Program-made: the position numbers and the translations under genes | Notes under the pieces: generated by a model | The model's database searches: none | What the model was told of the DNA's origin: nothing | The model's input: only the letters and a program-made list of their open reading frames with translations | NCBI GenBank assembly: GCA_030685015.1 | Contig: JAUXWS010000059.1 | Span: 124,001-188,000 of the forward strand | Reading direction: 5' to 3' | From: a bacterium | GTDB taxonomy: Bacteria > CAIWAD01 | DNA length: 64,000 nucleotides | Shown here: in pieces, positions 3,589 through 61,818 of the stretch | Position numbering within the stretch: position 1 is the first letter of the stretch | Layout: each line of letters opens with the position of its first letter

Positions 3589-3676
3589 GCGGGCGCCTTC
3601 AGGTCGGGACGGGTCTGTGGTCCTCGCCGGTCGAATCCGATGGGCCGCAAGCTAAGGAACTGGCCGCAAGCAGGGC

Positions 3677-36988: not shown

Positions 36989-39900
36989 ATGTCCAAGCGA
37001 CACACGCTTCAGCATCCCGTCCGTGTGGTCACCGCCGCCAGCCTCTACGACGGCCATGACGCCGCCATCAACATCATGCGGCGGGTGTTCCAGGCCGCCG
37101 GCGCCGAGGTCATCCACCTGGGACACAATCGCAGCGTGCTGGAGATTGTGCGGGCCGCCGTGCAGGAGGATGCCCAGGCCGTGGCCGTCTCCAGCTACCA
37201 GGGCGGCCACGTCCTCTTCTTCAAATACATGAAGGAGTTGCTGGCGCAGCGGGGCGCCGGCCATGTGAAGATCTTCGGCGGGGGCGGCGGTGTCATCGTC
37301 CGGGCGGAGATCGAAGAGCTGCACGCCGCCGGCATTGATCGCATCTTCAGCCCCCAGGATGGCACCGAACTGGGTCTGGAGGGCATGATCGACCTCGCCC
37401 TCGCCCTGAGCGATTACGATCCCGCCTCCTTGCCGATGGCGGACCTGGAGGCCCGCGTCCTGGCCCGCGACGAGGCGGCCCTGGGCCGGGCCCTCACCCT
37501 CTGCGAAAGAGGCGCGGCCGGGGCCACGCCCCGACCTGAACTTGTCCAGCTTCTCGCGGCGGGCCGAGCCTCGTGCACACCGGTTGTCGGCATCACGGGA
37601 ACGGGCGGCTCCGGCAAGAGCAGCCTCACCGATGAGATCCTCCGGCACTTTCAGGCCGCTTTCCCGGACAAGAGCGCGGCCGTGGTGAGCGTGGACCCCA
37701 CCAAGCGCAAGAGCGGCGGGGCCCTGCTGGGGGACCGCATCCGCGTCAACAGCCTGACAGGGGAGAGGGTTCTCCTGCGGAGCCTGGCCACGCGCGGCAG
37801 CGGCAGCGAGTTGTCGGCCGCCACCGGCGACGCCGTCGCCCTGCTCAAGGCGGCCGGCTACGATCTGGTGCTGCTCGAGACCAGCGGCATCGGCCAGGGC
37901 AGCTCCGCGGTGGTGGACCTGGCCGACTTCTCGATCTACGCCATGACCGCCGAGTATGGCGCGGCCAGCCAACTCGAGAAGATCGACATGATCGACTTTG
38001 CCGACATGGTCGTGCTCAACAAGTACGAGAAGCGGGGCAGCGAGGACGCCCTGCGCGACGTGCGCCGCCAGTACCGCCGCGCCCACTCCATTTCCTGGGA
38101 GGTGCCGGACGAGGATCTGCCGGTGTTCGGCACGGTGGCCAGCCGCTTTGACTGCAACGGCACCAACTGGTTCTTCGACCGCTTGATGGAGGCCCTGGAA
38201 TCGCGCTTCGGCGGCGGCTTTGCCCATGCGCCCTTGGCGCGGGACGCCCATGTGCTGCGTCGCCAGCTCATCCCCGAGGAGCGCACCACCTACCTGGCCG
38301 AGATCGCCCGCAGCGTCCGTGACTACAAGTCCCGCGTGGCGCGGGACGCCGAGCTGCTGCGCCGTCGCGCCCACCTGGCCTCCGCCATCGAGGAGCTGGA
38401 CGGCGGACACGCCGCCCTGGAGCTTTCGGCCCGTCGGGCCGACCTCGAGCGCCAACTCCACCCCGCCACCCTGCCCGCCCTGGAGGAGTACCGCGCCACC
38501 GCCGCCTGCTACACGGGCGATGTCTACGAGTACACCGTGCGTGGCCAGGTCCACCGGCAGGACCTGACCCGCGGGAGCCTGTCCGGCACCCGCGTCCCGC
38601 GCGTGGCCCTGCCCCGCCTCAGCGACGAGGGCGATCTTTACCGCTTCGTGGCCCTGGAGAACCTGCCCGGCTTCTTCCCCTACACGGCGGGCGTCTTCCC
38701 CTTCAAGCGCCAGGGCGAGGATCCCACCCGCCAGTTCGCCGGCGAGGGTCCGCCCGAGCGCACCAACCGCCGCTTCCATTACTTGTCCAGGGACAGCGGG
38801 GCCAAGCGTCTGTCCACCGCCTTCGACAGCGTCACGCTCTATGGCGAGGACCCCGACGAACGTCCCGACATCTTCGGCAAGGTGGGCGAGAGCGGCGTCT
38901 CCATCTGCACGCTGGATGACATGAAGCGCCTCTACGCCGGCTTCGACCTCTCCGCGCCCAACACCAGCGTCTCCATGACGATCAACGGGCCGGCCCCCAT
39001 GATCCTGGCCATGTATCTCAACACGGCCATCGACTTCGCCGTGGACAGGTTCCAGGCGGAACAGGGTCGCGCCCCCAACGCCGTGGAGCGCGCCGAGCTG
39101 CGCCGCCTCACGCTCTCCAGCGTGCGCGGCACGGTGCAGGCGGACATCCTCAAGGAGGACCAGGCCCAGAACACCTGCATCTTCTCCACCGAGTTCGCCC
39201 TCAAACTGATGGGCGACATCCAGGAGTGGTTCATCGCCCAGCAGGTGCGCAACTACTACAGCGTGTCCATCAGCGGCTACCACATCGCCGAGGCGGGGGC
39301 CAACCCCATCTCCCAGCTGGCCTTCACCCTGGCCAACGGCTTCACCTACGTGGAGTACTACCTGAGCCGCGGGATGGCGGTGGACGATTTCGCGCCCAAC
39401 CTCTCCTTTTTCTTCAGCAATGGACTGGACCCGGAGTACAGCGTGATCGGCCGCGTGGCGCGCCGCATCTGGGCCGTGGCCATGCGCGAGGTCTACCGCG
39501 GCAATGAGCGCAGCCAGAAGCTCAAGTACCACATCCAGACCAGCGGCCGCAGCCTGCACGCCCAGGAGATGGATTTCAACGACATCCGCACCACGCTGCA
39601 GGCGCTGCTGGCCGTTTACGACAACTGCAACAGCCTGCACACCAACGCCTACGACGAGGCGGTGACCACCCCCACCGAGGAGAGCGTGCGTCGCGCCCTG
39701 GCCATCCAGCTCATTGTCAACCACGAGTTCGGTGTGACGAAGAACGAGAATCCGCTCCAGGGCTCCTTCCTCATGGAGGATCTGACGGAGCTGGTGGAGG
39801 AAGCCGTTCTTGCCGAGTTCGTCCGGCTGAGCGAGCGCGGTGGCGTGCTGGGCGCGATGGAGACCCAGTACCAGCGGAGCCGCATCCAGGAAGAGTCCAT

Positions 39901-40225
39901 GCTCTATGAGTTGAAGAAGCAGTCCGGCGAGCTGCCCATCATGGGCGTGAACACCTTCCTGCGGCCCGGCGGCGACGAGGTGCCGGCGCACATGGAGCTG
40001 GCCCGGGCCAGCGACGAGGAGAAGGCGGGCCAGGTGACACGCCTGCGGGACTTCCAGGCCGCCCACGCCGCGGAAGCCGGCCCGGCCCTGGCGCGGCTCA
40101 AGGCGGTGGCGGCGGCGGGCGGCAACATCTTCGACGAGCTGATGGAGACGGTCCGCGTGGCCAGCCTGGGGCAGATCACGCGCGCCCTCTTCGAGGTGGG
40201 GGGCCAGTACCGGCGCAACATGTAG
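36989..40225 (+). CDS. icmF: fused isobutyryl-CoA mutase with MeaB-like G-protein (IcmF)
   Basis: 1078 residues, the length of IcmF. The B12-binding domain is N-terminal (AASLYDGHDAAINIMRR with His23 in DGHD; GAEVIHLGHNRS; IFGGGGGVIV). The MeaB-type GTPase chaperone follows, with P-loop GTGGSGKSS near residue 204, VVSVDPTKRKSGGALLGDRIR and NKYEKRGSEDALRD. The C-terminal half is the acyl-CoA-binding TIM barrel, with FDSVTLYGEDPDERPDIFGK, SVSMTINGPAPMILAMYLN and NAYDEAVTTPTEESVRRALA. It rearranges isobutyryl-CoA and n-butyryl-CoA via adenosylcobalamin. It stands alone, just downstream of the HAD gene, without epimerase or carboxylase partners. Confidence 0.95.
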   Translation: MSKRHTLQHPVRVVTAASLYDGHDAAINIMRRVFQAAGAEVIHLGHNRSVLEIVRAAVQEDAQAVAVSSYQGGHVLFFKYMKELLAQRGAGHVKIFGGGGGVIVRAEIEELHAAGIDRIFSPQDGTELGLEGMIDLALALSDYDPASLPMADLEARVLARDEAALGRALTLCERGAAGATPRPELVQLLAAGRASCTPVVGITGTGGSGKSSLTDEILRHFQAAFPDKSAAVVSVDPTKRKSGGALLGDRIRVNSLTGERVLLRSLATRGSGSELSAATGDAVALLKAAGYDLVLLETSGIGQGSSAVVDLADFSIYAMTAEYGAASQLEKIDMIDFADMVVLNKYEKRGSEDALRDVRRQYRRAHSISWEVPDEDLPVFGTVASRFDCNGTNWFFDRLMEALESRFGGGFAHAPLARDAHVLRRQLIPEERTTYLAEIARSVRDYKSRVARDAELLRRRAHLASAIEELDGGHAALELSARRADLERQLHPATLPALEEYRATAACYTGDVYEYTVRGQVHRQDLTRGSLSGTRVPRVALPRLSDEGDLYRFVALENLPGFFPYTAGVFPFKRQGEDPTRQFAGEGPPERTNRRFHYLSRDSGAKRLSTAFDSVTLYGEDPDERPDIFGKVGESGVSICTLDDMKRLYAGFDLSAPNTSVSMTINGPAPMILAMYLNTAIDFAVDRFQAEQGRAPNAVERAELRRLTLSSVRGTVQADILKEDQAQNTCIFSTEFALKLMGDIQEWFIAQQVRNYYSVSISGYHIAEAGANPISQLAFTLANGFTYVEYYLSRGMAVDDFAPNLSFFFSNGLDPEYSVIGRVARRIWAVAMREVYRGNERSQKLKYHIQTSGRSLHAQEMDFNDIRTTLQALLAVYDNCNSLHTNAYDEAVTTPTEESVRRALAIQLIVNHEFGVTKNENPLQGSFLMEDLTELVEEAVLAEFVRLSERGGVLGAMETQYQRSRIQEESMLYELKKQSGELPIMGVNTFLRPGGDEVPAHMELARASDEEKAGQVTRLRDFQAAHAAEAGPALARLKAVAAAGGNIFDELMETVRVASLGQITRALFEVGGQYRRNM

Positions 40226-44964: not shown

Positions 44965-45153
44965 GTCAAAGTGCTAACAGTTTTGAATCTGAACCGCCCC
45001 GAGATTGTGGCAGAACAGTTCAATACTATAGCCCAATCTGTCGATGGAAGGGTCGGCGTGACAGGATCGCAGGGGCGCTGGACGCCTCACGCGCCAACAG
45101 GAACCACCTTGTCTCGCTACATTCTGTTAGCCAAGTAACACCAGGAAGGTGTC

Positions 45154-46713
45154 ATGGCAATGCACTCCACAGCAGGCGGTTCTTGGCGCATCCTTGTTGC
45201 CGTGCTGGCCATGGTGATGCTGCAAGGCTGCGAGCGCATCAGTCCAGTGGGGCGGGATCCCGCCCTGGGCGCTGATGCCGTTGTCCTCACCTGCGAGAGC
45301 TGTCATACCACCCGCTCCTACCTGCGCCGGCTGGCCCTGGAAGAGGAGAGCGGCGGCGGTGGGGGCGGTGGCTGAGGCGGCTCGGTGGCTCCGTTGGAGC
45401 CATTCGAGAAGGTGTTCATCAACGCCGCCAGCTACGCCGAGGTGGATCCCCGCCACGCGGCCATCGGCTGCGTCACCTGCCACGGCGGCACGGAGCCGGT
45501 GGTGGCCGCCAGCGAGGCGCGGGACGACCTTTGGGTGGCCATGGCGTCCGCCCACGAGTTCACGGTGGAATACACGGGCAACGGCACCGTCATCCGGCGC
45601 AAGCCGGCGGTCAAGGGCGTGGTGCGCGATCCCTCCGCCCAGGCCGAGCTGAACTGCAATGGAGCGGGATGCCACTCCACCATCGTGGAGCTGAACGCCA
45701 CCTCCATGCACACGCAGCTCTGGGGAGAGAAACACAAGGTGGCCCTGCGCGCCGGCTACGAGCGCTTCGAGGACTGCCCGCAGCTGCTCAAGGACGGCTA
45801 CAACGGCGAGTGCACCAGCTGCCACACCACGTGCGGCCAGTGCCATGTCTCGCGGCCCAACTCCGTGCACGGCGGCCTCCTGGAGAGTCACCGTTTCAAG
45901 CGCACGCCGGAGATCGAGAACAACTGCACGGCCTGCCACGGCAGCCGCGTGGGCAACGACTTCACCGGCCACCTGGAGGGCAACCAGCCCGACGTCCATT
46001 ACGACCTGGGCTATGACTGCTTCTTCTGTCACCGGGAGAACCTGCATGGGGATGGGCGGATGGACTACACCACCCGCTATGAAGTGGCAGGCCTGCCGCA
46101 GTGTGTCAATTGCCACCAGCTGGCGTCCGACGACAACCTCTTCCACGAATACCATTGGCCCAGCGGCAATTCCATCGAAGAGGGCCTTTCCTGCCACGTC
46201 TGCCACAGCCAGCCCTACACCAATTGTCTCAACTGCCATGCGGGCGGGGTGTGGAGCAGCGGCAATCCCGAGGGCTACGCCGAGTACGGCGACTTCCGCA
46301 TCGGGCGCAACACGGGGCAGTGGCCCAACCATCCCGTCTCCAAGGAGGAGTGGGTGACGGTGCGTCACATCCCGGTCATCAAGGACGGATTCCGGGAGTG
46401 GGGCTGGCCCGTCCTGGACAACTGGGTCGCCTTCGAGACCTGGGAGTACGCCAGCCCGCACAACATCCAGCGCTACACGCCGCAGACGGAGATCGCGCTG
46501 GTCAATCCCGCCTATTCCATGGCCGACTGCTGGATGAACTGCCATGTGCAGGGTCCGCACGAGACGGTGAACGCCGGTCGCTTCCTGTGGTTGAGCCATT
46601 TGGACAGCCTGAAGCACCACGTGACCGGCCTGGAGGACGCGGACGAATACGTGCGGGCCAACCGGCGGGTGGCGGTGGATGACAGCATCAGCCGTTATTG
46701 GAACCGCCACTAA
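45154..46713 (+). CDS. selenocysteine-containing multihaem cytochrome c lipoprotein
   Basis: 519 residues counting Sec at residue 74 (TGA 45373-45375); the frame before and after is the same. A lipoprotein signal (LVAVLAMVMLQGC) anchors it to a membrane. Haem 1 is CESCH, then a glycine run SGGGGGGG-U-GGSVAPLEPFEKV. The later motifs are CVTCH, CNGAGCH (CX4CH), CTSCH, CGQCH, CTACH, CFFCH, CVNCH, CHVCH, CLNCH and CWMNCH (CX3CH), so up to eleven haems. Translating only from 45385 would leave a cytochrome without export signal, while the first part alone ends in oligoglycine, so one recoded gene fits best. AGGAAGG precedes the ATG. It heads the conduit operon. Role: surface or periplasmic redox protein; substrate unknown. 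Confidence 0.82.
45386..45402 (+). promoter_or_regulatory. putative bacterial SECIS hairpin for the UGA at 45373-45375
   Basis: Ten nucleotides after UGA begins a perfect 7-base stem UGGCUCC-GUU-GGAGCCA, extendable by G-U wobble pairs. The loop G and U are at +18 and +19, the same positions as in the two thioredoxin-like genes, although the sequence is unrelated. Confidence 0.75.
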
Positions 46714-46770
46714 GGGTCTGCCGGGCTTGGGCATGCCGCTGGTTGAGTGAAATTGATTGAAGGAGCGCAT

Positions 46771-47976
46771 GTGGGACGACACATTCACCTGTGTGCGATG
46801 GTTTTCGCCAGCGGGCTGCTGCTAGGCCTTGGCTGCTCAGATGACGAAGACGCCAACGCCAGGCCTCAAATCCAATCCCTGACGGCCAGCAACTTGAATC
46901 CGGCCCCGGCGGAGACGATCACCTTGACCTGTGAGGCGACGGATGCCGACGGCGACGAGTTGTCCTACGCCTGGCGGGCCAACGGACTCCCTTTCGGGGC
47001 CGATGCCGCCCAGGTCCAGTGGCAAGCGCCGGCGTCCAGCGGCCTGGTCACAGTGTCGGTCACGGTGTCGGACGGCATCGACACGGCCAGTCGCTCACTT
47101 CCGATCCAGGTCGGGCAGAACGAGTTCGCCCTGCTCACGGGCGTGACCGATCCCTCCTTTCCGGCCTGGAACGTCGATTGGCTCAAGGAGCCGACCTACG
47201 TCTACAACCATCAGGCGCAGCTCTTCATCGTTGATCTGCGCAGCTCGCTCGCCTACGCCAACGGCCACATCACGGGCGCCCGCAACACCAGCGTGGCCAA
47301 CCTGGCCGCCTATGTCGCCGCCAACAACTCGGGGGGAGATGAGATCGCCCTGGTCTGCGACACAGGCCAGATCGCCGCCTTCGCCGCCATGGGCTTGCGC
47401 ATGCTGGGGCACGACGCCTTCTGCATGAAATGGGGCATGGCCGGGTGGAACGATCTGCTGGCAGGGCCGTGGGATTCCGGCATCAGCAATCAATACGCGA
47501 ACATCATGTCCAACAGCGCCAGCCCGAACCTGCCCGTCAACAACTGGCCGACCCTGGCCACCGGGTTGTCCAGCGGACAAGCCATCCTGCAGGCGCGCGT
47601 GGCGGCCATCTTCGCCGAGGGGTTCGGGAACAACGTGATCAACGCCTATGAAGTGATGGACAGCCCTGGCACCTATCACATCCACAACTACTGGGTGACC
47701 CAGGACTACGAGGATGTCGGACACATCGCCGGCAGCTACCAGTTGACACCGGGCGCCGTCACCACGGCCACCGCCCTGTCCGCCCTGCACCCCACTCAAA
47801 TCAACGTCTTGTACTGCTGGACAGGCCATACCAGCGCATTCGTCGGCTTCTACCTCAATGTCTTGGGGTACGACCTTCTGAGCATGCGGTTCGGGGCCAA
47901 CGCCCTCATGCATGACGACCTGCCCCGGGAGCGGTGGGTGCATCAAGGGCACAACTTCCCGACGGTCACCAACTGA
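46771..47976 (+). CDS. lipoprotein with PKD-like domain and two rhodanese domains
   Basis: 401 residues. A lipoprotein signal (FASGLLLGLGC) is followed by an Ig/PKD-like domain (AETITLTCEATDADGDELSYAW). Rhodanese 1 has LFIVDLRSSLAYANGHITGA and the active cysteine in IALVCDTGQIAA. Rhodanese 2 has AYEVMDSPGTYHIHNYWVTQ, HIAGSYQLTPGA and cysteine in NVLYCWTGHTSA. Rhodaneses transfer sulfane sulfur; rhodanese-like lipoproteins also occur in putative outer-membrane conduit clusters (ext) of Geobacter. The start GTG at 46771 has AAGGAG six bases upstream. It follows the Sec-cytochrome by 57 bases. Confidence 0.88.
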   Translation: MGRHIHLCAMVFASGLLLGLGCSDDEDANARPQIQSLTASNLNPAPAETITLTCEATDADGDELSYAWRANGLPFGADAAQVQWQAPASSGLVTVSVTVSDGIDTASRSLPIQVGQNEFALLTGVTDPSFPAWNVDWLKEPTYVYNHQAQLFIVDLRSSLAYANGHITGARNTSVANLAAYVAANNSGGDEIALVCDTGQIAAFAAMGLRMLGHDAFCMKWGMAGWNDLLAGPWDSGISNQYANIMSNSASPNLPVNNWPTLATGLSSGQAILQARVAAIFAEGFGNNVINAYEVMDSPGTYHIHNYWVTQDYEDVGHIAGSYQLTPGAVTTATALSALHPTQINVLYCWTGHTSAFVGFYLNVLGYDLLSMRFGANALMHDDLPRERWVHQGHNFPTVTN

Positions 47977-48026: not shown

Positions 48027-48959
48027 TTGACCTTCTCCGATCTTTCTTGGACGAAGCGGGCGGCGCTGGTGGCAGCGCTGCTTGTCGGCCTCATGTATGC
48101 GACGACAGGGATCGCTCCCGCCGCCGATCCCGGCAAGTCCTCCTGCGGGCTGTGCCTGCCCCTTTCGACCGCTCGCGCCGAGGCGCCGCCGCCGCCGGTC
48201 CACCATCATGTGAGCATCCCCGGCAAGGTCAACCCGCACGGGCGGAGCGGCCGCTGCGCCTCCTGCCACCTGCCCGGCCGCGAACCGGCGGCCGAGAGCT
48301 GGCGTCCCGGCGCCTGCCTGGAATGCCATGACGCCCAGGCCCACCTGCGGGCGATCCATCCCACGGACTTCGCGGGGGACAGCCCGAAAGCGCCTGCCTT
48401 CGCCGGGGCGCCCCTGCAGGATGGCCGCTCCACCTGCCTGACCTGCCATGCCGTCCACTGCGCCCCGGAGACCAGGCACCGCGTCTCGCGGGAGAACCGC
48501 AGCATGCTGCGCGGCGGCCCCTGGCCCCGGGAGACGGATTTCTGCTACCAGTGCCACGACCGCGGCCTCTACCAACCGGTCAATCCCCATCTTGCCGGAG
48601 CGGAGGGCCGGGTCTGCTGGTACTGCCATGTTGGCAGCGGAGGGACGGGCCCCGTCCCGGGCACCGACCTGCAGTTGCTGCAGGGCGAGCTGTGCCTGAA
48701 GTGCCACAAGGACGTCAAGCACGAGCGGGAGCACATGGGCCGCTCGGTGCTGCACAACCGGCTGAAGATGGACACGGCCGCCGCGCTGGCGAGCTTCCAG
48801 GCCGGGAGTGGCGTCGTGCTGCCCCTGGATCCCGAGGGCCGGGTGGCCTGCGCCACCTGCCACAGCCCCAATCCCGCCTGCTCGCGGGGCGCACCGCCGG
48901 CCTCGAAGCTGCTGCGGGCAGCCAAGGAACGGATCTGTTATGCCTGTCATGACTTGTAG
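48027..48959 (+). CDS. 8-haem c-type cytochrome
   Basis: 310 residues with a signal peptide (about residues 10-33), a proline-rich linker, and eight CXXCH motifs: CASCH, CLECH, CLTCH, CYQCH, CWYCH, CLKCH, CATCH, CYACH. Pairing of motifs and the CLKCHKDVKHEREHMG block resemble doubled-CXXCH proteins that deliver electrons in the periplasm. The TTG start at 48027 after GGGGAGACC is the best available; an ATG at 48011 lies in another frame. The stop overlaps the next gene by 20 bases. Confidence 0.82.
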   Translation: MTFSDLSWTKRAALVAALLVGLMYATTGIAPAADPGKSSCGLCLPLSTARAEAPPPPVHHHVSIPGKVNPHGRSGRCASCHLPGREPAAESWRPGACLECHDAQAHLRAIHPTDFAGDSPKAPAFAGAPLQDGRSTCLTCHAVHCAPETRHRVSRENRSMLRGGPWPRETDFCYQCHDRGLYQPVNPHLAGAEGRVCWYCHVGSGGTGPVPGTDLQLLQGELCLKCHKDVKHEREHMGRSVLHNRLKMDTAAALASFQAGSGVVLPLDPEGRVACATCHSPNPACSRGAPPASKLLRAAKERICYACHDL

Positions 48960-49980
48960 TCGACCGCGGGTCCGTCCGGGCTGCCGGCTTTTGCCCATGC
49001 TGCTCGTACTGGCGGCAACGGTGACAGCCCATGCCCGCCTGGCGGACTCCGAGAACTGCGAGCTGTGCCACGGTCTGCCGCTGCTGGCACGCCTCGACGA
49101 AGGGGGCCAGCTGCGGCTCTTCGAGGTCAGCGCCACCATGGTGCAGCACTCTTCGCACCGCGGCATCGGCTGCCGGGACTGTCACAGCGACATCGACGCC
49201 TTTCCCCACCCCGAGCGCGTCCAGCCTGTGGATTGCGGCAAGACCTGTCACGTCAACCGGCCCTTCGAACTGACCGTCTTCTCCCACCGCGCCGAGGTGG
49301 AAGCGCTGGCCCTCAGTATCCACGGCCGCAACGACAAGGAGAACGAGGAGACCAACGCCGCCAAGCCCACCTGCAAGTACTGCCACGGCAGCCACCTGAT
49401 GGCCCAGCCATCCCAGCGGGTGCAGGAGCAGGCGCGGCACTGTGCCAGTTGCCACGACGGCAACTCCCTGGAGAGCGTCATCGAGCATGTGGACCGCCAC
49501 ACCTCCCACCGCAGCGCCGAGAACTCGATCAACATCGTCAAGCTCTGCGCCAGCTGCCATGGGGACGCCACCCTGATGGAGAGCGTCAATTTGAGCAGCA
49601 CGCAGGTGGCGGGGTTCCAGCATCACTTCCACGGCAAGGCGATGCGGCGCGGTCTGGACGGAGTGGCCAATTGCGCCGATTGCCACACCAGCCACCTGGT
49701 GTTGCCCCAGGACGACCCGGCGTCCACCCTCTCGACGGCGAACATCCGCCAGACATGCGGCACCGTCAATTGCCACGTCAATCCCAGCCTCGAATTCGCC
49801 CGCTCGGCCATTCATTCGCAGCCCACGATGAAAAGCAATCCCGTCGTCTACGCCGTGAGCTGGGGATTCATCCTGCTCACGGCCATCACCATGGCCCTGC
49901 TTTTCAGCCACATCCTGCTGGATTTTGGCCGCTGGCTGCACGACCGCTTCACGACGGGAGGGCGCCATGAGGGTAAGTGA
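48940..49980 (+). CDS. octahaem c-type cytochrome with C-terminal membrane helix
   Basis: 346 residues. A signal peptide is followed by CELCH, CRDCH, CGKTCH (CX3CH), CKYCH, CASCH, CASCH, CADCH and CGTVNCH (CX4CH), then one membrane helix (VVYAVSWGFILLTAITMALL). The motif order, including the CX3CH at place 3 and the CX4CH at place 8, is identical to the N-terminal third of the fused protein at 51555-54131. It is the first of a three-gene set (octahaem c, cytochrome b, trihaem c) joined by overlaps. It likely passes electrons from the cytochrome b into the periplasm. Confidence 0.87.
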   Translation: MPVMTCSRPRVRPGCRLLPMLLVLAATVTAHARLADSENCELCHGLPLLARLDEGGQLRLFEVSATMVQHSSHRGIGCRDCHSDIDAFPHPERVQPVDCGKTCHVNRPFELTVFSHRAEVEALALSIHGRNDKENEETNAAKPTCKYCHGSHLMAQPSQRVQEQARHCASCHDGNSLESVIEHVDRHTSHRSAENSINIVKLCASCHGDATLMESVNLSSTQVAGFQHHFHGKAMRRGLDGVANCADCHTSHLVLPQDDPASTLSTANIRQTCGTVNCHVNPSLEFARSAIHSQPTMKSNPVVYAVSWGFILLTAITMALLFSHILLDFGRWLHDRFTTGGRHEGK

Positions 49981-50755
49981 CCGCATCCGCGTCATCGGCG
50001 AACGCCGCGAGTATCTGCGCTTCACCACTTCGCAACGCCTGCAGCACGTCTTCATGTTCGTGCCCTTCACCGTCCTGGTGGTGACGGGCTTTCCCATCAA
50101 GTTCCCTGACAGCTCTTTCTGGACCTGGGTGGTGGACGTGTTCGGGGGAATTGGAAACATCCGCAGCCTGCACCGCATCGCCGCGGTGGTGATGATCGTC
50201 GACTTCTGCTTCCATGTCGTCTATATGCTGTTCAACATCGTTCGCAACCGCACGAGAGTGAAGGACATGCATCTGCTGCCCGACCGGCAGGACCTGCGCG
50301 ACATCCGGGACAACCTGCGCCACTTCCTGTTCCTCACGGACGAGCGGCCGCGCTTCCGCCGCTTTTCCTACCTGGAGAAGTTCGACTACTGGGCGGTCTT
50401 CTGGGGCATGTTCATCATGGCCGGCAGCGGACTCATCCTCTGGCATCCGGAGGAGGCGGGGCGCTGGCTGCCCGCCTCGGCGATCCAGATCGCTTACGTG
50501 GCGCACAGCGACGAGGCGCTCCTCGCCTTCCTCGCCATCGTCATCTGGCACTTCTACAACGTGCACTTCAATCCCCGCGTCTGGCCGGCCAACAAAGTGT
50601 GGTACAAGGGCGCCCTGTCCGAGGAGCGCATGCGGGAGGAGCACCCCCGGGAGCTTGAGGAGATTCTCGAACAACTGAAGCGGGGCCGGCAGCGGCGGCA
50701 CGACGATGTGGGCGATGGTCAAGGGCCACAGGACGGCCGGGACGGTGGGGCATGA
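49967..50755 (+). CDS. membrane cytochrome b (b561/FdnI-like)
   Basis: 262 residues with four membrane helices. Histidines positioned as b-haem ligands occur in SQRLQHVFMF, RSLHRIAAVV, FCFHVVYM, VAHSDEALLAF and WHFYNVHF. Each has an equivalent in the central part of the fused protein downstream (ISHVIMF, WSHRVAAI, YHVGYAL, VHSLEAI, WHFWNVHW). It probably oxidises quinol and passes electrons to the octahaem protein encoded upstream, whose gene it overlaps by 14 bases. GGGAGG precedes the ATG. Confidence 0.87.
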   Translation: MRVSDRIRVIGERREYLRFTTSQRLQHVFMFVPFTVLVVTGFPIKFPDSSFWTWVVDVFGGIGNIRSLHRIAAVVMIVDFCFHVVYMLFNIVRNRTRVKDMHLLPDRQDLRDIRDNLRHFLFLTDERPRFRRFSYLEKFDYWAVFWGMFIMAGSGLILWHPEEAGRWLPASAIQIAYVAHSDEALLAFLAIVIWHFYNVHFNPRVWPANKVWYKGALSEERMREEHPRELEEILEQLKRGRQRRHDDVGDGQGPQDGRDGGA

Positions 50756-51555
50756 ACACCAGAGCCGTGGGACGGATCCTTTACGCCCTGGCCGTGTTCG
50801 CCGTGGGCAGCGCCATTTCCATCCTCTTGGTGCGATGGGCGAATCAGCCCCACCGCGCGGACGAGGAGGCGGCCCCGGACAAGCGCCAGTTCGCCGACCA
50901 CATCCGCCAGTTGGAGAGCTGGTTCGAGGATTACCGCAACCAGGAGCGGCACTTCCACACCATCGAGATCCACCCCCTGCTTCCTCTGGGACAGCAAGAG
51001 GCCTGCCTGACCTGCCATCCCCTCTTCCCGCACACCAAGGATGCCAAGCGCCGGGCCTTCTACAACCAGCACTCCCACTTCCTCAGCTGCCTGGCCTGCC
51101 ACCTGGACGACGAATCGAGGGGAAGGACGCGCCTGGAGTGGACCACCTTCGGGGTTGAGAACTCGATCACGGCCCGCGGCCCCTACGGACTGGAACGTCT
51201 GGAGAACGGCGGTCTGACGGGCGCGGGGAACTATATAAGCCGGATGGTGCCTGTGCTGTCCGCAGGTGGAAGCTCCACGCTGCTCTTCACTCCCTACGAC
51301 GACAAGCGCTACCAGGCCTTCCGCGCCGACGCCGAGGGCGGACTTGAGATCGATGAGGCCGAATTCCGGGAGTTCGCCGAGGAGCATGTGGGCGACAAGC
51401 CGCTGGCCTGCCTGTCTTGTCATGCCCCGGAGACGGAGTTCCCCTGGAGCCCCCTCGGCTTCAGCCAGGGCCGCATCCACGAGTTGACACACTCCGCCGC
51501 GGTGGGCATGGTGGAGAACTACGAGCCATTCCACTTCCCGATCCTGGAGGACTGA
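50752..51555 (+). CDS. trihaem c-type cytochrome with N-terminal membrane anchor
   Basis: 267 residues. One N-terminal helix (ILYALAVFAVGSAISILLV) anchors a periplasmic domain with CLTCH in HPLLPLGQQEACLTCHPLFPH, CLACH in HSHFLSCLACHLDD, and CLSCH near the end. It matches the C-terminal third of the fused protein downstream (LLCHSLLPH; LHSRFMSCEGCHAH; FDEGRIRQLRSSA against FSQGRIHELTHSA). The start overlaps the cytochrome b stop (ATGA) and the stop overlaps the next start (TGATG). Confidence 0.87.
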   Translation: MNTRAVGRILYALAVFAVGSAISILLVRWANQPHRADEEAAPDKRQFADHIRQLESWFEDYRNQERHFHTIEIHPLLPLGQQEACLTCHPLFPHTKDAKRRAFYNQHSHFLSCLACHLDDESRGRTRLEWTTFGVENSITARGPYGLERLENGGLTGAGNYISRMVPVLSAGGSSTLLFTPYDDKRYQAFRADAEGGLEIDEAEFREFAEEHVGDKPLACLSCHAPETEFPWSPLGFSQGRIHELTHSAAVGMVENYEPFHFPILED

Positions 51556-54131
51556 TGAGCCGCGTGCCCATCCCCATCCTGCTCCTGGCCCTGCTGTTGG
51601 CGGGGCTGGCCCGTGCCCAGGACACGCGGTTCGATCCGGAGAACTGCCTTTACTGCCACGGCAAGCCGTGGATGGCGGTGCTGGATTCGGCGGGGGTCCG
51701 CAACTTCCACATCGACGAGAACGTCCACCGGGAGTCCGTCCATGGGCGCTTCGCCTGCCGGCAGTGCCATGTGGACATCGACCAGGTGCCGCACCGCACG
51801 CCTGTGCAGAAGGTGAACTGCGCCGTCGCCTGCCATGTGATCGACCCCTACACGGGCAGGGACTTCAGCCATCTCCAGATGGCCCAGGATCTGGCCAACT
51901 CCGTGCACGGCAAGTCGGGCAAGGGTGCCCTCGACCACCGCAAGCCGGTCTGCAAGGACTGCCACGTCAATTCCATCTACTGGCAGAAGCTGCCGAGCAA
52001 CCTGGAGCGGGCCAGGAACAAGTGCCTGGCCTGCCACGAGAACTACAACGAGCTCGAGGGGGACTTCAAACACCTGGCCCTGCACATCAGCGAGAGCGAG
52101 TACTGGCGCACCCAGAAAAACTTCGAGGCCTGCATCCGCTGCCACACGGACAACGAACTGGTGTCGGACAGCCTGGCCACCCTGCTCATTGACGGGACGA
52201 TGGTCTCCAGCTTCCTCAAGTCCTTCCACGGGCGCGGCTTCAGTTTCGGTGACCGCCGCAGCCCGGTGTGCGCGGACTGCCACGGCTACCACAAGGTGCT
52301 GAGCCACACGGACGAGCGATCCATGATCCACTCGTCCAACCTGCGGCAAACCTGCAGCGCCACGGGCTGCCACGACGGCGCCACCGTCGCCTTCGCCACG
52401 GCCGGCTCCATGCACGACCTTTACCAGGGCGTCAAGGTGCACGTGTTGGTGTGGGTGAAGCGGGTGTACATCTGGCTCATCGTGCTCACCATCGGCGGCA
52501 TGATGCTGCACAACCTGCTGGACTGGTGGTCCTGGCGCCGCCATCGCAAGGCCCACGCCGCAGCCGCGGCGAAGGCGGAGCAGGCGGGGGCGGTGCGCCG
52601 CGTCTTCCGGCGCTTGACGCCCGCGGAGCGCATCTCCCACGTCATCATGTTCGTCAGTTTCACGCTGCTCGCCCTCACCGGCGTCATCCTGTGGATTCCA
52701 CCGGAGCGCTTCGGCACGCTGACGCACTGGGTGTATTTCATGCCGGTGCGCGACTGGAGCCACCGGGTGGCGGCCATCATGCTGACGCTGGTCAGCGTCT
52801 ACCACGTGGGCTACGCCCTCTTCACCCGGCGCGGGCGCGCCTTGCTGGGGACCATGCTGCCTGGTCCCTCCGACATCCGCCTCTTCTTCCACAACCTGGC
52901 CTTCATGCTGGGCAGGCGGAAGGACAGGCCCCCCTTCGGTTTCTTCAATTACAGCGAGAAGATGGAGTACTGGGCCTTCGCCTGGGGCTCCCTCGTCATG
53001 ACCGCCACCGGCATCATCCTGTGGTGGGAGCACCTGGGCAGCAAGTTCATCGTGGATCTTGCCCGCCTGGTCCACTCCCTGGAAGCGATCCTGGCCGTGG
53101 CGGCCATCGTCGTCTGGCACTTCTGGAATGTCCACTGGAAGCCGGCCCGCTGGCCCATGAGCGAAGTGTGGATCGACGGCAGGATGGGCGAGGAGGACAT
53201 GGAGGAGGAACACGGCGCGCTGATGGCGGCGGACGCCGTGACGACCCACGGATCGATTCTCATGCAGGAGGTGACGGGAACACCGGAGCGCCGCCGCCAC
53301 ACCCGCAAGGTGCTGGCCCGCACCCTGGGCTGGTCTTTTCTCACGTTGACCATTCTCACCTGCGCGGCGATGGTCTGGTCCTTCCGTCTCTACCTCGGCT
53401 TGGGTGGAAGGGACTCCGACACCATGGTCGCCCAGTGGCTGAAGCGTCCCCTGGCCGACAAGGAGGCCGCCCTCGCCGATCCCACCTACCCGCTGCGGGT
53501 GGCCCACGAGGACGTGGACTGGCGGCACCGCCGCTTCCACGACCAGCAACCGGTGGTGGTGGAGGACAGCCAGTTGCGCCGCAGCGAGTGCCTGCTTTGC
53601 CACTCCCTGCTGCCGCATCAGGGGAATGTCAAGACCCGGTCCTACATCAATCTGCACAGCCGCTTCATGTCCTGCGAGGGCTGCCACGCGCATCCCGTGG
53701 ATCGGCAGCCTTCCAACTGGGCCTGGCTGGACCTGCGCCGCAACCCCGCCGGTCAACCGGACCTGCCCTACAAACTACTGTCGGAGCCCGCGGGCACGGG
53801 TCTGGGAAATTACACAAGCCTTCTGGGCCTGAAAGTGGATGGCGCCCACCTCTTTGCCGACCTGGACAGCGAGCGGGCCCGCGAGTACCTGGGCGGCACG
53901 GCGCCCATGACCCAGGCCCGCATGAAAGAGACGAAGGACCGCTTCCACGACCGCATCCGGGCGGAACCGGGGTCCGGCGCCCAGTGCAGCGAGTGCCACG
54001 CCGCCGAGGGAGGCCTCCTCGACTACCAAGCCCTGGGCTTTGATGAAGGCAGAATCCGCCAACTGCGCAGCAGCGCCATAACCGCGAGCGTGACCGACAA
54101 TGAAATCTTCTATCTGCCGCCGGCCTACTGA
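51555..54131 (+). CDS. fused octahaem c / cytochrome b / trihaem c membrane protein (CbcL-like plan)
   Basis: 858 residues. After a signal peptide, residues 25-290 hold eight haem sites: CLYCH, CRQCH, CAVACH (CX3CH), CKDCH, CLACH, CIRCH, CADCH and CSATGCH (CX4CH). One helix (IWLIVLTIGGMMLHNLL) joins to a cytochrome b domain at about 345-560 with five candidate ligand histidines. Another helix (LGWSFLTLTILTCAAMVWSF) leads to a trihaem domain (CLLCH near 678, CEGCH, CSECH near 810). Each part corresponds to one of the three genes just upstream, so this is a fused paralogue of that set. Geobacter CbcL is a comparable c-type/b-type fusion that oxidises menaquinol; the same role is inferred. Confidence 0.9.
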   Translation: MSRVPIPILLLALLLAGLARAQDTRFDPENCLYCHGKPWMAVLDSAGVRNFHIDENVHRESVHGRFACRQCHVDIDQVPHRTPVQKVNCAVACHVIDPYTGRDFSHLQMAQDLANSVHGKSGKGALDHRKPVCKDCHVNSIYWQKLPSNLERARNKCLACHENYNELEGDFKHLALHISESEYWRTQKNFEACIRCHTDNELVSDSLATLLIDGTMVSSFLKSFHGRGFSFGDRRSPVCADCHGYHKVLSHTDERSMIHSSNLRQTCSATGCHDGATVAFATAGSMHDLYQGVKVHVLVWVKRVYIWLIVLTIGGMMLHNLLDWWSWRRHRKAHAAAAAKAEQAGAVRRVFRRLTPAERISHVIMFVSFTLLALTGVILWIPPERFGTLTHWVYFMPVRDWSHRVAAIMLTLVSVYHVGYALFTRRGRALLGTMLPGPSDIRLFFHNLAFMLGRRKDRPPFGFFNYSEKMEYWAFAWGSLVMTATGIILWWEHLGSKFIVDLARLVHSLEAILAVAAIVVWHFWNVHWKPARWPMSEVWIDGRMGEEDMEEEHGALMAADAVTTHGSILMQEVTGTPERRRHTRKVLARTLGWSFLTLTILTCAAMVWSFRLYLGLGGRDSDTMVAQWLKRPLADKEAALADPTYPLRVAHEDVDWRHRRFHDQQPVVVEDSQLRRSECLLCHSLLPHQGNVKTRSYINLHSRFMSCEGCHAHPVDRQPSNWAWLDLRRNPAGQPDLPYKLLSEPAGTGLGNYTSLLGLKVDGAHLFADLDSERAREYLGGTAPMTQARMKETKDRFHDRIRAEPGSGAQCSECHAAEGGLLDYQALGFDEGRIRQLRSSAITASVTDNEIFYLPPAY

Positions 54132-55053
54132 GCGCCGGACATCGCTTCACCTTGTCGCCCTGGTGCTGGCCGCCCTCATGGTGCGCGTCGCGGCGGCCGT
54201 CGAGGTGCGTGTTCTCCAGAACCTGTCGGCGGGGACGACTTATCCCACCGATCTGGCGGCGGACGCCCGCGCCAACGCCTATGTGGTGGACGGACTCAAC
54301 AAGCGAGTCGTCGTGCTGAGTCCGCAGGGCCAGGTCCTGCGCGAGATCACACACGAGGCCTTCGTCAATCCGGTGGGCAACGACGTCTGGCAGGACCGTC
54401 TCTACGTCAGCGATCCGGAGGCGGGCGCCATCTTCATCATGACCCTGGACGGCCGCCTCCTGCAGACCATCGAGATGCCCGGAAACTGCGATCCGGTGGA
54501 CGTGCTGGCCCTGGAGGACAAGCTGGTGGTGTCGGACAACGACAACCATCGCCTGCTCTTCATCAGCTACGACGGCGCGCTGCTCAAGGCGATCGGGCGT
54601 GGCGCCGAACAGGTCCGTCCCATGCGCCGCATGGCCGGTATGACCCTGCCCGACGGCCGGCCCGGCGACCGGGTCGAGGAGTTCAAGTTTCCCGGCATCC
54701 TCTCCCGGCACCAGAACGGCTTCATGGTGATCGATGTGCTGGGCGGCCGCATCCAGGCCTACACGCGGCTGGGGAACTTCGACCGGATGGTGGGCAGCTT
54801 CGGTACCGATGGCGACCGCCTCTACCGGCCCAAGGGTGCCTGCGCCTGCTGGAACGGCAAGGGCCTGCTCATCACGGACAGCTACATGGGCATGGTCCAT
54901 GCCTATGACGAGTTCGCCCAAAGCCAGGGCCTGCTCACCCTGAAAGGCCAGCCCTGGCGGCTGGAGGGTCCCACGGCCATCGTCTGCTGCGGCGAATCCT
55001 GGTGGATCGTGGACAGCAAGGCGAGCCGCATCCTGCGCTTCGACATTCCTTGA
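54100..55053 (+). CDS. secreted NHL-repeat beta-propeller protein
   Basis: 317 residues with a signal peptide (LHLVALVLAALMVRVAAA) and about six NHL-type blades: TYPTDLAADARANAYVVDGL, DRLYVSDPEAGAIFIMTLDG, LVVSDNDNHRLLFISYDG, NGFMVIDVLGGRIQAYTRLG, GLLITDSYMGMVHAYDE and WWIVDSKASRILRF. Such propellers usually mediate protein contacts. It overlaps the fused cytochrome by 32 bases and precedes the 18-haem gene, so it may be a structural partner of the conduit. Confidence 0.85.
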   Translation: MKSSICRRPTERRTSLHLVALVLAALMVRVAAAVEVRVLQNLSAGTTYPTDLAADARANAYVVDGLNKRVVVLSPQGQVLREITHEAFVNPVGNDVWQDRLYVSDPEAGAIFIMTLDGRLLQTIEMPGNCDPVDVLALEDKLVVSDNDNHRLLFISYDGALLKAIGRGAEQVRPMRRMAGMTLPDGRPGDRVEEFKFPGILSRHQNGFMVIDVLGGRIQAYTRLGNFDRMVGSFGTDGDRLYRPKGACACWNGKGLLITDSYMGMVHAYDEFAQSQGLLTLKGQPWRLEGPTAIVCCGESWWIVDSKASRILRFDIP

Positions 55054-55072
55054 GGTGGTGGAGGCAGTGACC

Positions 55073-57250
55073 ATGATCGGCCGAGCATCCTCCCGCCGCG
55101 CCCCGCTGCTGCTGGTGGCCGTGCTGCCGGCCCTGCTGGCGCAGGGGAATCCGGCGGCGGCCCAGCTCAAGATGGACCGCTCCAAGGAATGCGTGATCTG
55201 CCACATCTCGTGGGGCGAGGGCTATGAGAAAATGGCCCGCCTCCTGCCGCCGGTGGACCATCCCATTGTCATCGACGGCCGGGAAGCCCGCGTCTCCACC
55301 CAGGACATGTGCTGGTCCTGTCACGACGGCTACGTGGGGGATTCCCGCCGCTTTTTCCAAAAGGACGATCCGCACTTCCGACCGCCCGGCAACCCGGCGG
55401 CGGTGGCGGCCAGCGGCCTGCCGCGCGACCTGAACGGCGAGATCTATTGTGGGACCTGCCACACGCCGCACATCCACAAGATGGAGCGCGAGTTCGTCTA
55501 CGTGCCCTTCCTGCGCGCTGAGGCGAACAACTCCGCCCTCTGTCTCAGGTGCCATTCCGACCGCGGCCGCCGCGGCACGGACCACCCCTTGCGCGTGCCA
55601 CTGGAGGAGGGACTGCCCGCCGCGCTGGCCGGCCGCCATGTCTCGACCACCCAGGTGGAATGCATGACCTGCCACGACATGCACAGTCCGCACAAGGCCC
55701 GTCTGATGGAGGGCAACGACCGGACCCAGCTCTGCCGCAGCTGCCACGAGTCCAGCTTCGCCATCCTGCAGAGCGACCACCACCTCGCCCTCTCCCACCC
55801 GGACCTGCCCATCGGCGACTCGCGCAAGACGGCGGGCGCAGCGGACGCCTGCGCCGCCTGCCACCTCAGCCATGGCGGGCGCGGGCCAGCCATGTGGGCC
55901 TGGCCGTTGCCCGGAACGCGCAACGGCAACCAGGTCGTGCAGAACGGCGTGGACGCCCGCTGCCTCAGTTGTCACCAGGACAAGGGCGCGGCGGGGGCGA
56001 TGAGCTGGGTGGGGCACGGCCATCCGCTGAACAAGCCGGTGCGCGAGCAGGATCTGGCCTTGCCTCTGCGGGCCGGTGGCATGAGCTGCACCACCTGCCA
56101 CGACCCCCACGCCTGGAGCGCCCTGCCCGAGCACGCCCCCGGCCCCGGCAACGAGGAGGGAACGGCCCTCACCAGCTTCCTGCGATTGCCCGATGACGAG
56201 AACGGCCGTCTCTGCATCAATTGCCACCGCAGCCAGGCGCAGACGCTTGTCTCGGACCACAACTCCTTCAACTGGAGCGAGCCGAGCCGCGGACAGTGCA
56301 CGTCCTGCCACAACACGCACGCACCCAAGGCTTTCAGCGACAACCACGCCACGCCCGGCGTCTCGGAGTTCACCAGCCTCTGCCTCTCCTGCCACGGCGG
56401 AACGGGCCGCCACGGCGCCACACCGCTGGGCCGGCACGGTCATCCCCTGGGCGTGGCCCTGACGGGGAGCAAGGAGCTGCCCGCCTTCCGCAGCGACAAC
56501 CTGCGGCCCTGGAGGCCGGGCCAGGCGGAACCGGCCGACGCCCGGCTCCTGGTCGGCTGCGAGTCCTGCCACGATCCGCACCGCTGGAATCCCGCCGGTC
56601 CGCCCTCCTGGCAGGGACCCAACGCCCGGGGCGACGACGCCAGCTCCTTCCTCCACGTGATCAACACCGGAGCCCAGCTCTGCGCCGCCTGCCACCCGCA
56701 TGAGACCCAGGTGCTGGGCAGCGCCCACGACCTCAGCGCCCGGCGACCGGGCGAGAGCGCCTGCCGCGCCTGCCACACCACACACCGCGCCGTCTCCGAT
56801 TGGGCCATCATCGCCAGCAGCCTGAGCGACGGCGAGATGGCGCAGGTGGCTGACGCCACGCCGGCGGGCAGCTTGGAGCGCAACCCTGGGAACTGGTCAC
56901 CCGGGGCCCGCCACTGCCTCTCCTGCCACCGCGGGAACGGAGCCAGCCAACGCGTTCCCGAAGCCTGGGGCCACCCCCAGAAGTACACGACCCTGGTGGG
57001 CAATGTGCGGCCGGACGGCCGCGCCATGCCTCTCTTCGATCATGAGGGCCGGACCCAAGGCGCCATCGGCCACGTTGACTGCACCAGCTGCCACAACCCG
57101 CACGTGGCCCATCCGGCGACCGGCGGCGAGCATGCGCCCGACTTCCTGCGCCAGGAGACAAGCGAAGCCATCTGCTCCGATTGCCATGGAGACAAGGCGC
57201 TGTGGAAGTACCGCTACTATCATTCGAGCGACAAACGGGTGCTGCCATGA
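55073..57250 (+). CDS. 18-haem c-type cytochrome (cluster B)
   Basis: 725 residues. Signal peptide MIGRASSRRAPLLLVAVLPA and onward, then 18 CXXCH motifs from CVICHISWGEGYEKM to CSDCHGDKALWKYRYYHSSD. The order, spacing and flanks (MCWSCHDGYVGDSRRFF; DLNGEIYCGTCHTPHIHKME; NWSPGARHCLSCHRGNGASQRVPEAW) match the 18-haem protein of cluster A, so the two are paralogues. ATG 55073 with GGAGG eight bases upstream is preferred over GTG 55055. It sits just before a lipoprotein propeller and an outer-membrane barrel, so it is a candidate for the conduit's periplasmic or outer cytochrome. Confidence 0.93.
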   Translation: MIGRASSRRAPLLLVAVLPALLAQGNPAAAQLKMDRSKECVICHISWGEGYEKMARLLPPVDHPIVIDGREARVSTQDMCWSCHDGYVGDSRRFFQKDDPHFRPPGNPAAVAASGLPRDLNGEIYCGTCHTPHIHKMEREFVYVPFLRAEANNSALCLRCHSDRGRRGTDHPLRVPLEEGLPAALAGRHVSTTQVECMTCHDMHSPHKARLMEGNDRTQLCRSCHESSFAILQSDHHLALSHPDLPIGDSRKTAGAADACAACHLSHGGRGPAMWAWPLPGTRNGNQVVQNGVDARCLSCHQDKGAAGAMSWVGHGHPLNKPVREQDLALPLRAGGMSCTTCHDPHAWSALPEHAPGPGNEEGTALTSFLRLPDDENGRLCINCHRSQAQTLVSDHNSFNWSEPSRGQCTSCHNTHAPKAFSDNHATPGVSEFTSLCLSCHGGTGRHGATPLGRHGHPLGVALTGSKELPAFRSDNLRPWRPGQAEPADARLLVGCESCHDPHRWNPAGPPSWQGPNARGDDASSFLHVINTGAQLCAACHPHETQVLGSAHDLSARRPGESACRACHTTHRAVSDWAIIASSLSDGEMAQVADATPAGSLERNPGNWSPGARHCLSCHRGNGASQRVPEAWGHPQKYTTLVGNVRPDGRAMPLFDHEGRTQGAIGHVDCTSCHNPHVAHPATGGEHAPDFLRQETSEAICSDCHGDKALWKYRYYHSSDKRVLP

Positions 57251-58278
57251 CGCGGCCGCTGGTCATGATCCTGCTGACAGCCCTGCTGGCGGCGGGCTGC
57301 GCCACCGTGCGCCACGAGGGCCCCCGCGCCCTGGTGGCCGACGGCCGCGACACGCTCTTCCTGCATGAGGGCGACCTCTTGGCCCAAGTCCGCTCGGTCG
57401 AGGGGCTGGGCCTCAAGGCGCTGCGCTGGGTGACAGGCAGCTGCGTCACGGCCTCCATCGGGCGCCCGACGGACGTGGCGGTGGACGGTGAGGGGCGGGT
57501 GCTGGTCTGCGACGGCGACCTGTCCCGCGTGGTGCGGCTCAGCCCGGAGGGCTGCTCGCCCCGTCCCTTCGAGGTGTTCAGCGCCCCTGAGTTCGCCACG
57601 CCCACCGGCGTCGAGGTCTTTCCGGCCGGCATCGCCGTGGCCGACGCCGGCCGCGCCAAGGTCTTCCTGCTGTCCAGCGGGACGGGTCGCTTGGCCGGCG
57701 AGCTGAGCACCCCGGAGGGCTGGTCGCGCCCCGGACAGATGCACTGGGACGGCAGCCGCCTGCGCGTGGTCGACGGCGGCCGCCATGTGGTGGAGAGCTT
57801 CGACGCCCAGGGCCACTGGCTGGGCACCCTGGGGCGTGAGGGCGGCGGCCCCGGCGAGTTCCTGCATCCCGTGGCCGTGGCCGTCGATCCCGATGGGCAG
57901 GTGTGGGTGCTGGACGCCCTCAACCACCGCGTCCAATCCTTCACACCGGAGGGCCGCCATCTGCTGAGCTTCGGCGTCTACGACCATGCGCCGGGCGGTT
58001 TCATGTTCCCCAAGGGCTTGGCCTTCGACGAGGACGGCAACCTCTACGTCAGCGACGCCGGCTTCAGCCGCATCCAGGTCTTCAGCCGCACGGGGGCGCT
58101 GCTCTACTGGTTCGGCGGCCCCGGCCGCGAGGGGGACCGCTTCCTCATGCCCGGCGCCCTTTGCGCCCGCGGCAATCGCATCTACATCGCCGACCAGTAC
58201 AACCGGCGCATCCAGGTCTACCGCTACCTGCCCTACCTCGCCGGCGAGGGGCTGGACGTGGGGGAGGCGCGGCCATGA
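57247..58278 (+). CDS. NHL-repeat lipoprotein
   Basis: 343 residues. A lipoprotein signal (LVMILLTALLAAGC) is followed by six NHL blades such as RPTDVAVDGEGRVLVCDGDL, HPVAVAVDPDGQVWVLDALN, FPKGLAFDEDGNLYVSDAGF and GNRIYIADQYNRRIQVYRYL. The start overlaps the 18-haem stop (ATGA) and its stop overlaps the barrel start (ATGA), so it is tightly coupled to both. Probably an outer-membrane-attached scaffold of the conduit. Confidence 0.88.
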   Translation: MTRPLVMILLTALLAAGCATVRHEGPRALVADGRDTLFLHEGDLLAQVRSVEGLGLKALRWVTGSCVTASIGRPTDVAVDGEGRVLVCDGDLSRVVRLSPEGCSPRPFEVFSAPEFATPTGVEVFPAGIAVADAGRAKVFLLSSGTGRLAGELSTPEGWSRPGQMHWDGSRLRVVDGGRHVVESFDAQGHWLGTLGREGGGPGEFLHPVAVAVDPDGQVWVLDALNHRVQSFTPEGRHLLSFGVYDHAPGGFMFPKGLAFDEDGNLYVSDAGFSRIQVFSRTGALLYWFGGPGREGDRFLMPGALCARGNRIYIADQYNRRIQVYRYLPYLAGEGLDVGEARP

Positions 58279-61757: not shown

Positions 61758-61805
61758 CGGGGCGATGAAGACCGCGAAGCGGCCAAGTTTGATAGGCTGC
61801 CAGTG
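61758..61805 (+). repeat. dispersed repeat, copy 4 (long form)
   Basis: GGGGCGATGAAGACCGC then the core with two transitions (GGCCAAGTTTGATAGGCTG), directly upstream of the next gene's ribosome site. It matches copy 1 across its whole length. Confidence 0.7.
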
Positions 61806-61818
61806 GGTGGGGGAAACC

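Follow-up and report, generated by a model that had tools for sequence, protein, structure and literature searches.

When an in-frame TGA interrupts the gene of a multihaem cytochrome c, two questions arise, namely how this codon is read and what the residue inserted there would do. The gene concerned lies in a stretch of 64,000 nucleotides of a bacterial contig, which is the whole stretch of DNA that was analysed and is called the window below. An initial annotation of the window had taken the TGA for a probable selenocysteine (Sec) codon. The features on which the first question turns are the following.

45154–46713, plus strand: 11-haem c-type cytochrome lipoprotein of 519 amino acids with Sec at residue 74 (translation, family alignments)
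45229–45231, plus strand: lipobox cysteine C26 in LQGC (translation)
45373–45375, plus strand: in-frame TGA read as Sec, residue 74, in the loop GGG-U-GG (translation, codon census)
45386–45402, plus strand: SECIS hairpin with a stem of 6 bp (45387–45392 with 45396–45401), loop GUU (45393–45395) and an extra U-A pair (45386/45402)

Translation of 45154–46713 confirmed the annotated frame with its lipoprotein start, CESCH, oligoglycine and TGA. It reads M...LQGC-ERI...CESCHTTRSYLRRLALEEESGGGGGGG-TGA-GGSVAPLEPFEKV... up to the stop codon TAA at 46711–46713, and its sole interruption is the TGA, within GGGGGGG-U-GG. The N-terminus consists of a signal peptide and the lipobox LQGC, followed by haem motif 1 (CESCH), seven glycines, the TGA, GG and further haem motifs. 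Altogether there are 11 motifs, the first upstream of the TGA and the other ten downstream, as had been annotated, once variant spacings are counted: nine are CxxCH, CNGAGCH (168–174) is CX4CH and CWMNCH (459–464) is CX3CH. Among 52 relatives CX3CH or CX4CH likewise stands in for CxxCH at some sites, and 11 motifs are a constant of the family (51 of the 52, the remaining one having 12); only nine non-motif histidines are conserved for these 11 haems. The predicted model has a mean pLDDT of 85 with values below 50 at residues 68–72, in the Sec loop, and at 363–374, and in this model the glycine-rich arm carrying Sec74 between haems 1 and 2 is flexible and disordered, more so than any other part. 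Judged from the lipobox and the operon, a location of the cytochrome in the outer envelope or at the surface is plausible. Antisense to the gene runs a minus-strand open reading frame of 553 amino acids (45127–46788), probably a high-GC shadow of the coding frame.

Homologues of the cytochrome are widespread and were found in at least 581 loci. Named hosts belong to Neomarinimicrobiota, Calditrichota, Delongbacteria, Krumholzibacteriota, Ignavibacteriota, Bacteroidota, Chlorobiota and Thermodesulfobacteriota; the sample of named loci comprises the 80 best among at least 581, and distant members may differ. Within the host's own class, the closest relative with a name is a Candidatus Delongbacteria MAG (G004/L078). 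At the position of residue 74, 98 sampled loci had TGA in 70 cases, TGC or TGT in 19 and a codon for another residue in six, three being unreadable; a few loci were duplicated across two collections, and without the duplicates the numbers are 66 TGA, 19 Cys and six others. The TGA persists down to about 31–35% protein identity, and the homologue alignment gave G-[U/C]-G-G as the motif at this site, i.e. the U or Cys at residue 74 which the initial annotation had predicted. A chance TGA is excluded by its conservation (70 of the 98 loci, with Cys in 19 more), and a sequencing error, be it a frameshift or a misread sense codon, because dozens of independent genomes have the identical TGA. Three switches between U and Cys were placed on a tree of 91 proteins. 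The Cys form is carried, for instance, by an Ignavibacteriota MAG named Melioribacter roseus (L111). Three Cys members (L066, L105 and L112) are nested among Sec members and look like recent conversions from Sec; the genomes of L066 and L112 retain SelB, and some remnants of the hairpin are left among the three.

All four sel genes, which had been proposed as a check, were found in the window's genome (G000, 97% complete): selA (E 1e-115) and selB (E 1e-86) by profile search, selC as a tRNA-Sec with anticodon tca on the same contig as the window, and selD (C37:12407–13327, locus L136), which is itself a selenoprotein with an in-frame TGA in CSGGU-AAK. The CSGGU of selD is a second independent Sec site in this genome. 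SelB scored above the curated cut-off in 34 of 38 TGA genomes (33 of 37 others and the window's own) as compared with three of 19 Cys genomes; of the four TGA genomes without SelB, two are drafts of 67% and 90% estimated completeness, and for the remaining two there is no such figure.

Directly 3' of the UGA the sequence GGCUCC-GUU-GGAGCC (45387–45401) can fold to a hairpin with a G in its apical loop. The annotated hairpin of seven pairs with GU in the loop proved to be real, with six pairs and U45386-A45402 as a possible seventh. Its minimum free energy is −19.1 kcal/mol, with a z of −2.9 against dinucleotide shuffles and again of −2.9 when this peptide was recoded with synonymous codons. 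Among 61 distinct sequences all six pairs vary on both sides, and 64 compensatory cells were counted, against 18.6 ± 3.1 for shuffled data and 7–22 when the partner was slid. At least five of the six stem pairs are formed in 52 of 66 TGA genes but in only two of 19 Cys genes. The loop is GUU in 51 of the 66 TGA genes, and nine further ones have GCU at the loop position, several of which fold as a hairpin in a shifted register. Since the peptide fixes part of the hairpin, Sec and Cys genes differ only modestly in folding energy (mean z −1.12 versus −0.60, p about 0.02), and the decisive tests are pair counting and covariation. Rfam at gathering thresholds gave no match within the 64-kb window; short bacterial SECIS hairpins may lie outside its coverage.

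A reassignment of UGA to a sense codon throughout the genome, for which nothing but the in-frame TGA itself speaks, has a negligible probability and is refuted, because at least 12 neighbouring genes in the window use TGA as their stop codon and the Sec machinery is present. It is hardly more credible that the TGA at 45373 is a real stop, the gene being broken or frameshifted or translation restarting at GTG 45385. The listing of open reading frames does split the gene at this codon, but the same TGA recurs in 70 loci, with Cys partners and a covarying SECIS stem, and a restart at the GTG would drop the conserved signal peptide, the lipobox and haem 1; conservation refutes the stop. The reading of the UGA as Sec is borne out by the codon census, the covariation of the hairpin, the sel genes and the distribution of SelB, and on this comparative evidence it is very well supported that the cytochrome is a true selenoprotein with Sec at residue 74.

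As to what this residue would do, the gene behind the cytochrome, which the earlier reading had missed, is the place to look.

46747–47976, plus strand: partner gene; its product is a secreted lipoprotein in which an Ig/PKD-like domain is combined with two rhodanese domains, with C204 and C357 in their active sites (PF00581, conservation, model)

The gene matches Pfam PF00581 with E 4e-16. Counted in loci with enough downstream sequence, a rhodanese gene follows the cytochrome directly in 76 of 77 Sec/Cys loci (58 of 59 with Sec, 18 of 18 with Cys) with a median gap of 39 nucleotides, and it adjoins none of five cytochrome genes in which the Sec/Cys residue is lost. The active-site cysteines C204 and C357, in the loops CYxGQ and CxTGQ, are each kept in 68 of 70 proteins and the lipoprotein cysteine C30 in 66 of 70. 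The predicted model (pLDDT 84, mostly above 90 over both rhodanese domains) matches rhodaneses in the PDB, and the second domain was recognised from it. Two rhodanese domains with active-site Cys loops are shared with the secreted tandem-domain rhodaneses of PF00581, from which the window's copy differs in being a lipoprotein with an N-terminal Ig/PKD-like domain and in being tied to a Sec/Cys cytochrome. This near-obligate rhodanese is a better functional lead than the ligation of a metal or the two-electron chemistry that had been suggested for the selenol.

The genes further downstream share this strand, and most of them overlap or are separated by short gaps:

48027–48959, plus strand: 8-haem cytochrome
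48868–49980, plus strand: multihaem cytochrome with a C-terminal membrane helix
49967–50755, plus strand: b-type cytochrome, likely the quinol-side membrane subunit (PF01292, E 5e-14)
50752–51555, plus strand: 3-haem cytochrome
51555–54131, plus strand: fusion of 6-haem, cytochrome b and 3-haem parts, repeating the three preceding genes in one chain
54100–55053, plus strand: NHL-repeat protein
55055–57250, plus strand: multihaem cytochrome with 18 motifs
57247–58278, plus strand: NHL-repeat lipoprotein
58293–60059, plus strand: likely outer-membrane beta-barrel (sequence and position only)
60059–61714, plus strand: multihaem cytochrome with 11 motifs

The cytochrome thus stands at the head of an electron-transfer operon, as had been annotated, with b-type cytochromes, multihaems, NHL proteins and a putative barrel behind it. 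Of the components of a porin-cytochrome electron conduit, which comprises a beta-barrel, multihaems of the periplasm and the surface and a quinol cytochrome of the inner membrane, cytochrome b and multihaems are present, and the barrel candidate, proposed from its sequence and position, had no Pfam match. The multihaem upstream of cytochrome b (48868–49980) is the 6-haem member, with the membrane helix, of a trio with cytochrome b and the 3-haem cytochrome (48868–51552); the trio recurs fused at 51555–54131, apparently a duplication with fusion. Many Neomarinimicrobiota loci (L042–L047, L052, L070) have the same gene order after the Sec gene, which supports one functional unit in that group. 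In loci from Calditrichota, Ignavibacteriota and Krumholzibacteriota it is mainly the pair of cytochrome and rhodanese that is kept. Elsewhere in the window, 36989–40225 encodes an IcmF-like fusion of methylmalonyl-CoA mutase, B12-binding domain and MeaB GTPase, and the CxxCH in 61765–62271 (CANCHRIRDERGRWERIESYVRDHSEAEFSHGICPDCM) resembles a zinc-type motif, not a haem site.

Family members which have lost the residue give the most direct view of its role. Six of them (L072, L064, L065, L058, L071 and L075) carry R, D, Y, H, D and A, respectively, in place of Sec/Cys; the adjacent rhodanese is gone in the five with enough downstream sequence, and the genomes keep SelB, which is partial in that of L071. 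A new function of these cytochromes is possible. On the tree of 91 proteins the loss of the residue coincided with that of the rhodanese on three independent branches with good support (on five in the best tree), and the sampled pairs contained no case of either being lost alone. With so few independent co-losses (three to five) a tree-aware sign test did not reach significance, and Fisher values for the link treat related loci as independent and hence overstate their independence. Proteins without Sec/Cys retain all 11 haem motifs and every conserved histidine; drift is confined to the G-U-G motif and a few positions (R308, N357, N437), and at least two of these members (L058, L064) remain in the same electron-transfer operon. 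As the haem set is intact after loss of the residue, Sec or Cys would have a chemical function separate from the electron wire. On the sequences compared, the Sec site is separable from this wire and is lost together with the rhodanese.

The simplest reading of residue 74 from these patterns is a mobile selenol or thiol arm which would exchange sulfane sulfur or selenium. We regard it as fairly probable that the Sec cytochrome works with the tandem rhodanese in such a way that chalcogen is exchanged on the Sec/Cys arm and electrons run via the haem chain. SelB would decode the UGA at the hairpin directly 3' of it, by which Sec74 would come to lie on the glycine-rich arm, and the cytochrome would act together with the rhodanese lipoprotein encoded downstream. 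The cysteines of the latter would take up sulfane sulfur as persulfide from thiosulfate, polysulfide or elemental sulfur, and possibly selenite-derived selenium as another cargo. The Sec (or Cys) arm would then exchange chalcogen with the rhodanese persulfide, as a selenosulfide, and the haem chain would supply or remove electrons, so that the rhodanese would load the substrate and the cytochrome would do the redox work. The exchange of chalcogen between arm and rhodanese, its direction and its substrate are what we infer from the sequences. The operon headed by this pair also encodes membrane b-type cytochromes, periplasmic multihaems, NHL proteins and a barrel candidate, which makes it probable that the electron path links the quinone pool with the cell surface.

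Two other functions have to be weighed. The pair might reduce selenite or tellurite or otherwise handle selenium, with Sec as the site of selenium exchange, a function of the kind proposed for the ext cluster of Geobacter. In this cluster, too, a rhodanese lipoprotein and a Sec cytochrome are encoded together, and deletion of ExtI weakens the reduction of selenite and tellurite (PMC5877670, PMC6148476). The Cys versions, however, are stable and common (19 loci) and occur in genomes mostly without SelB, which argues that selenium is not required, and the window's rhodanese has no significant similarity to ExtH, so that this function appears improbable. Somewhat better, though still unlikely, stands the proposal that Sec or Cys is a haem ligand or is located at an open catalytic haem to which the rhodanese delivers its substrate. 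A cysteine at a haem, as a ligand or at an open catalytic haem site, is found in SoxAX, TsdA and DsrJ. In the present family two of the 11 haems have no conserved distal histidine, given the nine conserved non-motif histidines, and the family is distantly related to octahaem tetrathionate reductase (PDB 1sp3; profile E 1.6e-8, and a structural Z of 6.8, where values below 8 may mean a common arrangement only). Against this proposal, a long, glycine-rich loop that the predicted model shows as disordered does not resemble a fixed ligand, and the haem set is unaltered when the residue is lost.

With chalcogen exchange between cytochrome and rhodanese as the preferred reading, the widespread Sec/Cys 11-haem family and its rhodanese could constitute an undescribed respiratory chalcogen reductase or oxidase that does without molybdenum and sirohaem; a swinging selenol arm would ferry sulfane sulfur between the rhodanese and the surface-linked haem wire. 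We put this forward tentatively, as a proposal with the balance slightly against it. The linkage of cytochrome and rhodanese in many anaerobic bacteria suggests, from gene content and conservation, an undescribed connection of extracellular electron transfer with reactions of sulfur or selenium, and it provides a concrete hypothesis of uncultured anaerobes that would couple the chemistry of sulfane sulfur or selenium to this process. The family adds at least 581 loci to the selenoproteins, in which gene callers are expected to cut the protein at the UGA. It also offers a natural comparison of Sec with Cys in a common scaffold: the switch between them happened three times independently, and the partner is co-lost with the residue.

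Among known systems the closest in kind is ExtKL of Geobacter (GSU2937-2936), a Sec-containing multihaem cytochrome (PMC1914089, PMC5877670). The remark in the initial annotation that such cytochromes had been proposed in other bacteria was correct in this sense, but ExtKL is a different protein with its Sec elsewhere. Both are multihaem c-type cytochromes of the periplasm or outer envelope with an in-frame UGA (PMC1914089, PMC5877670, PMC6148476), and both are clustered with a rhodanese lipoprotein and other multihaems (PMC5877670, PMC6148476). In the Geobacterales ExtKL (L165, L167) there are five haems and the Sec follows the haem domain in GH[AG]IPDG-U-PTPNRL, whereas the window's cytochrome has 11 haems and its Sec lies in the glycine loop that separates haem 1 from haem 2. 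Membership in ExtKL was rejected, as the motif differs and NF040886 (cut-off 250 bits) matched neither the protein nor the locus nor the 52 relatives; a search for ExtKL over 290 relatives yielded no match, controls included, and is uninformative on absence. A real relation exists to ExtM, the 12-haem cytochrome of the ext cluster (NF040943), which 23 of the 52 relatives match weakly (best E 7e-13), far below the cut-off of 800 bits, so that membership in ExtM was rejected as well; in ExtM haems 1 and 2 are joined by about 12 residues without a Sec/Cys loop. No NCBIfam model matched the cytochrome family. ExtH was likewise rejected as ortholog of the partner rhodanese. The tail of the Geobacterales ExtH proteins (L165, 2016–3518; L167, reverse complement 2469–3839) is rich in glycine and has Cys as its last residue (GGAGGGC, GTGDASGC), which recalls the glycine-Sec arm of the window's cytochrome.

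The best relative in the PDB, by profile and also by structural comparison, is the octahaem tetrathionate reductase of Shewanella mentioned above, with eight haems as compared with 11. The structural comparison covered 247 residues at 4.3 Å, and Foldseek with the cytochrome model gave no significant match in the PDB; the relation is remote. For the corresponding family TIGR04315, one Sec member is listed (PMC13188914). Membership in TIGR04315 was rejected, no member of the present family having matched at E 1e-3 and the haems being 11, not eight. An inventory of 119 selenoprotein families published in 2026 contains in its Table 1 ExtKL, a GSU2204-type barrel and the TIGR04315 octahaem; the family of the window's cytochrome is absent from this table (PMC13188914). 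Hypothetical selenoprotein DG (NF049953, motif GUxG) was also rejected, being a different protein of 172 positions without a match at the locus. In the open-access literature on such a Sec cytochrome, work related to ExtKL and the 2026 inventory were all that was found, and an earlier description may have gone undetected. A SirA-like octahaem cytochrome of Dethiobacter (DealDRAFT_1917) is a multihaem encoded together with rhodaneses and is upregulated on thiosulfate; it is set apart by its description as an octahaem, with no Sec reported (PMC10376724). Clusters of a rhodanese with multihaem cytochromes are thus known from Geobacter, with ExtH, and from Dethiobacter (PMC6148476, PMC10376724), which makes a role of the present pair in the chemistry of sulfur or selenium plausible.
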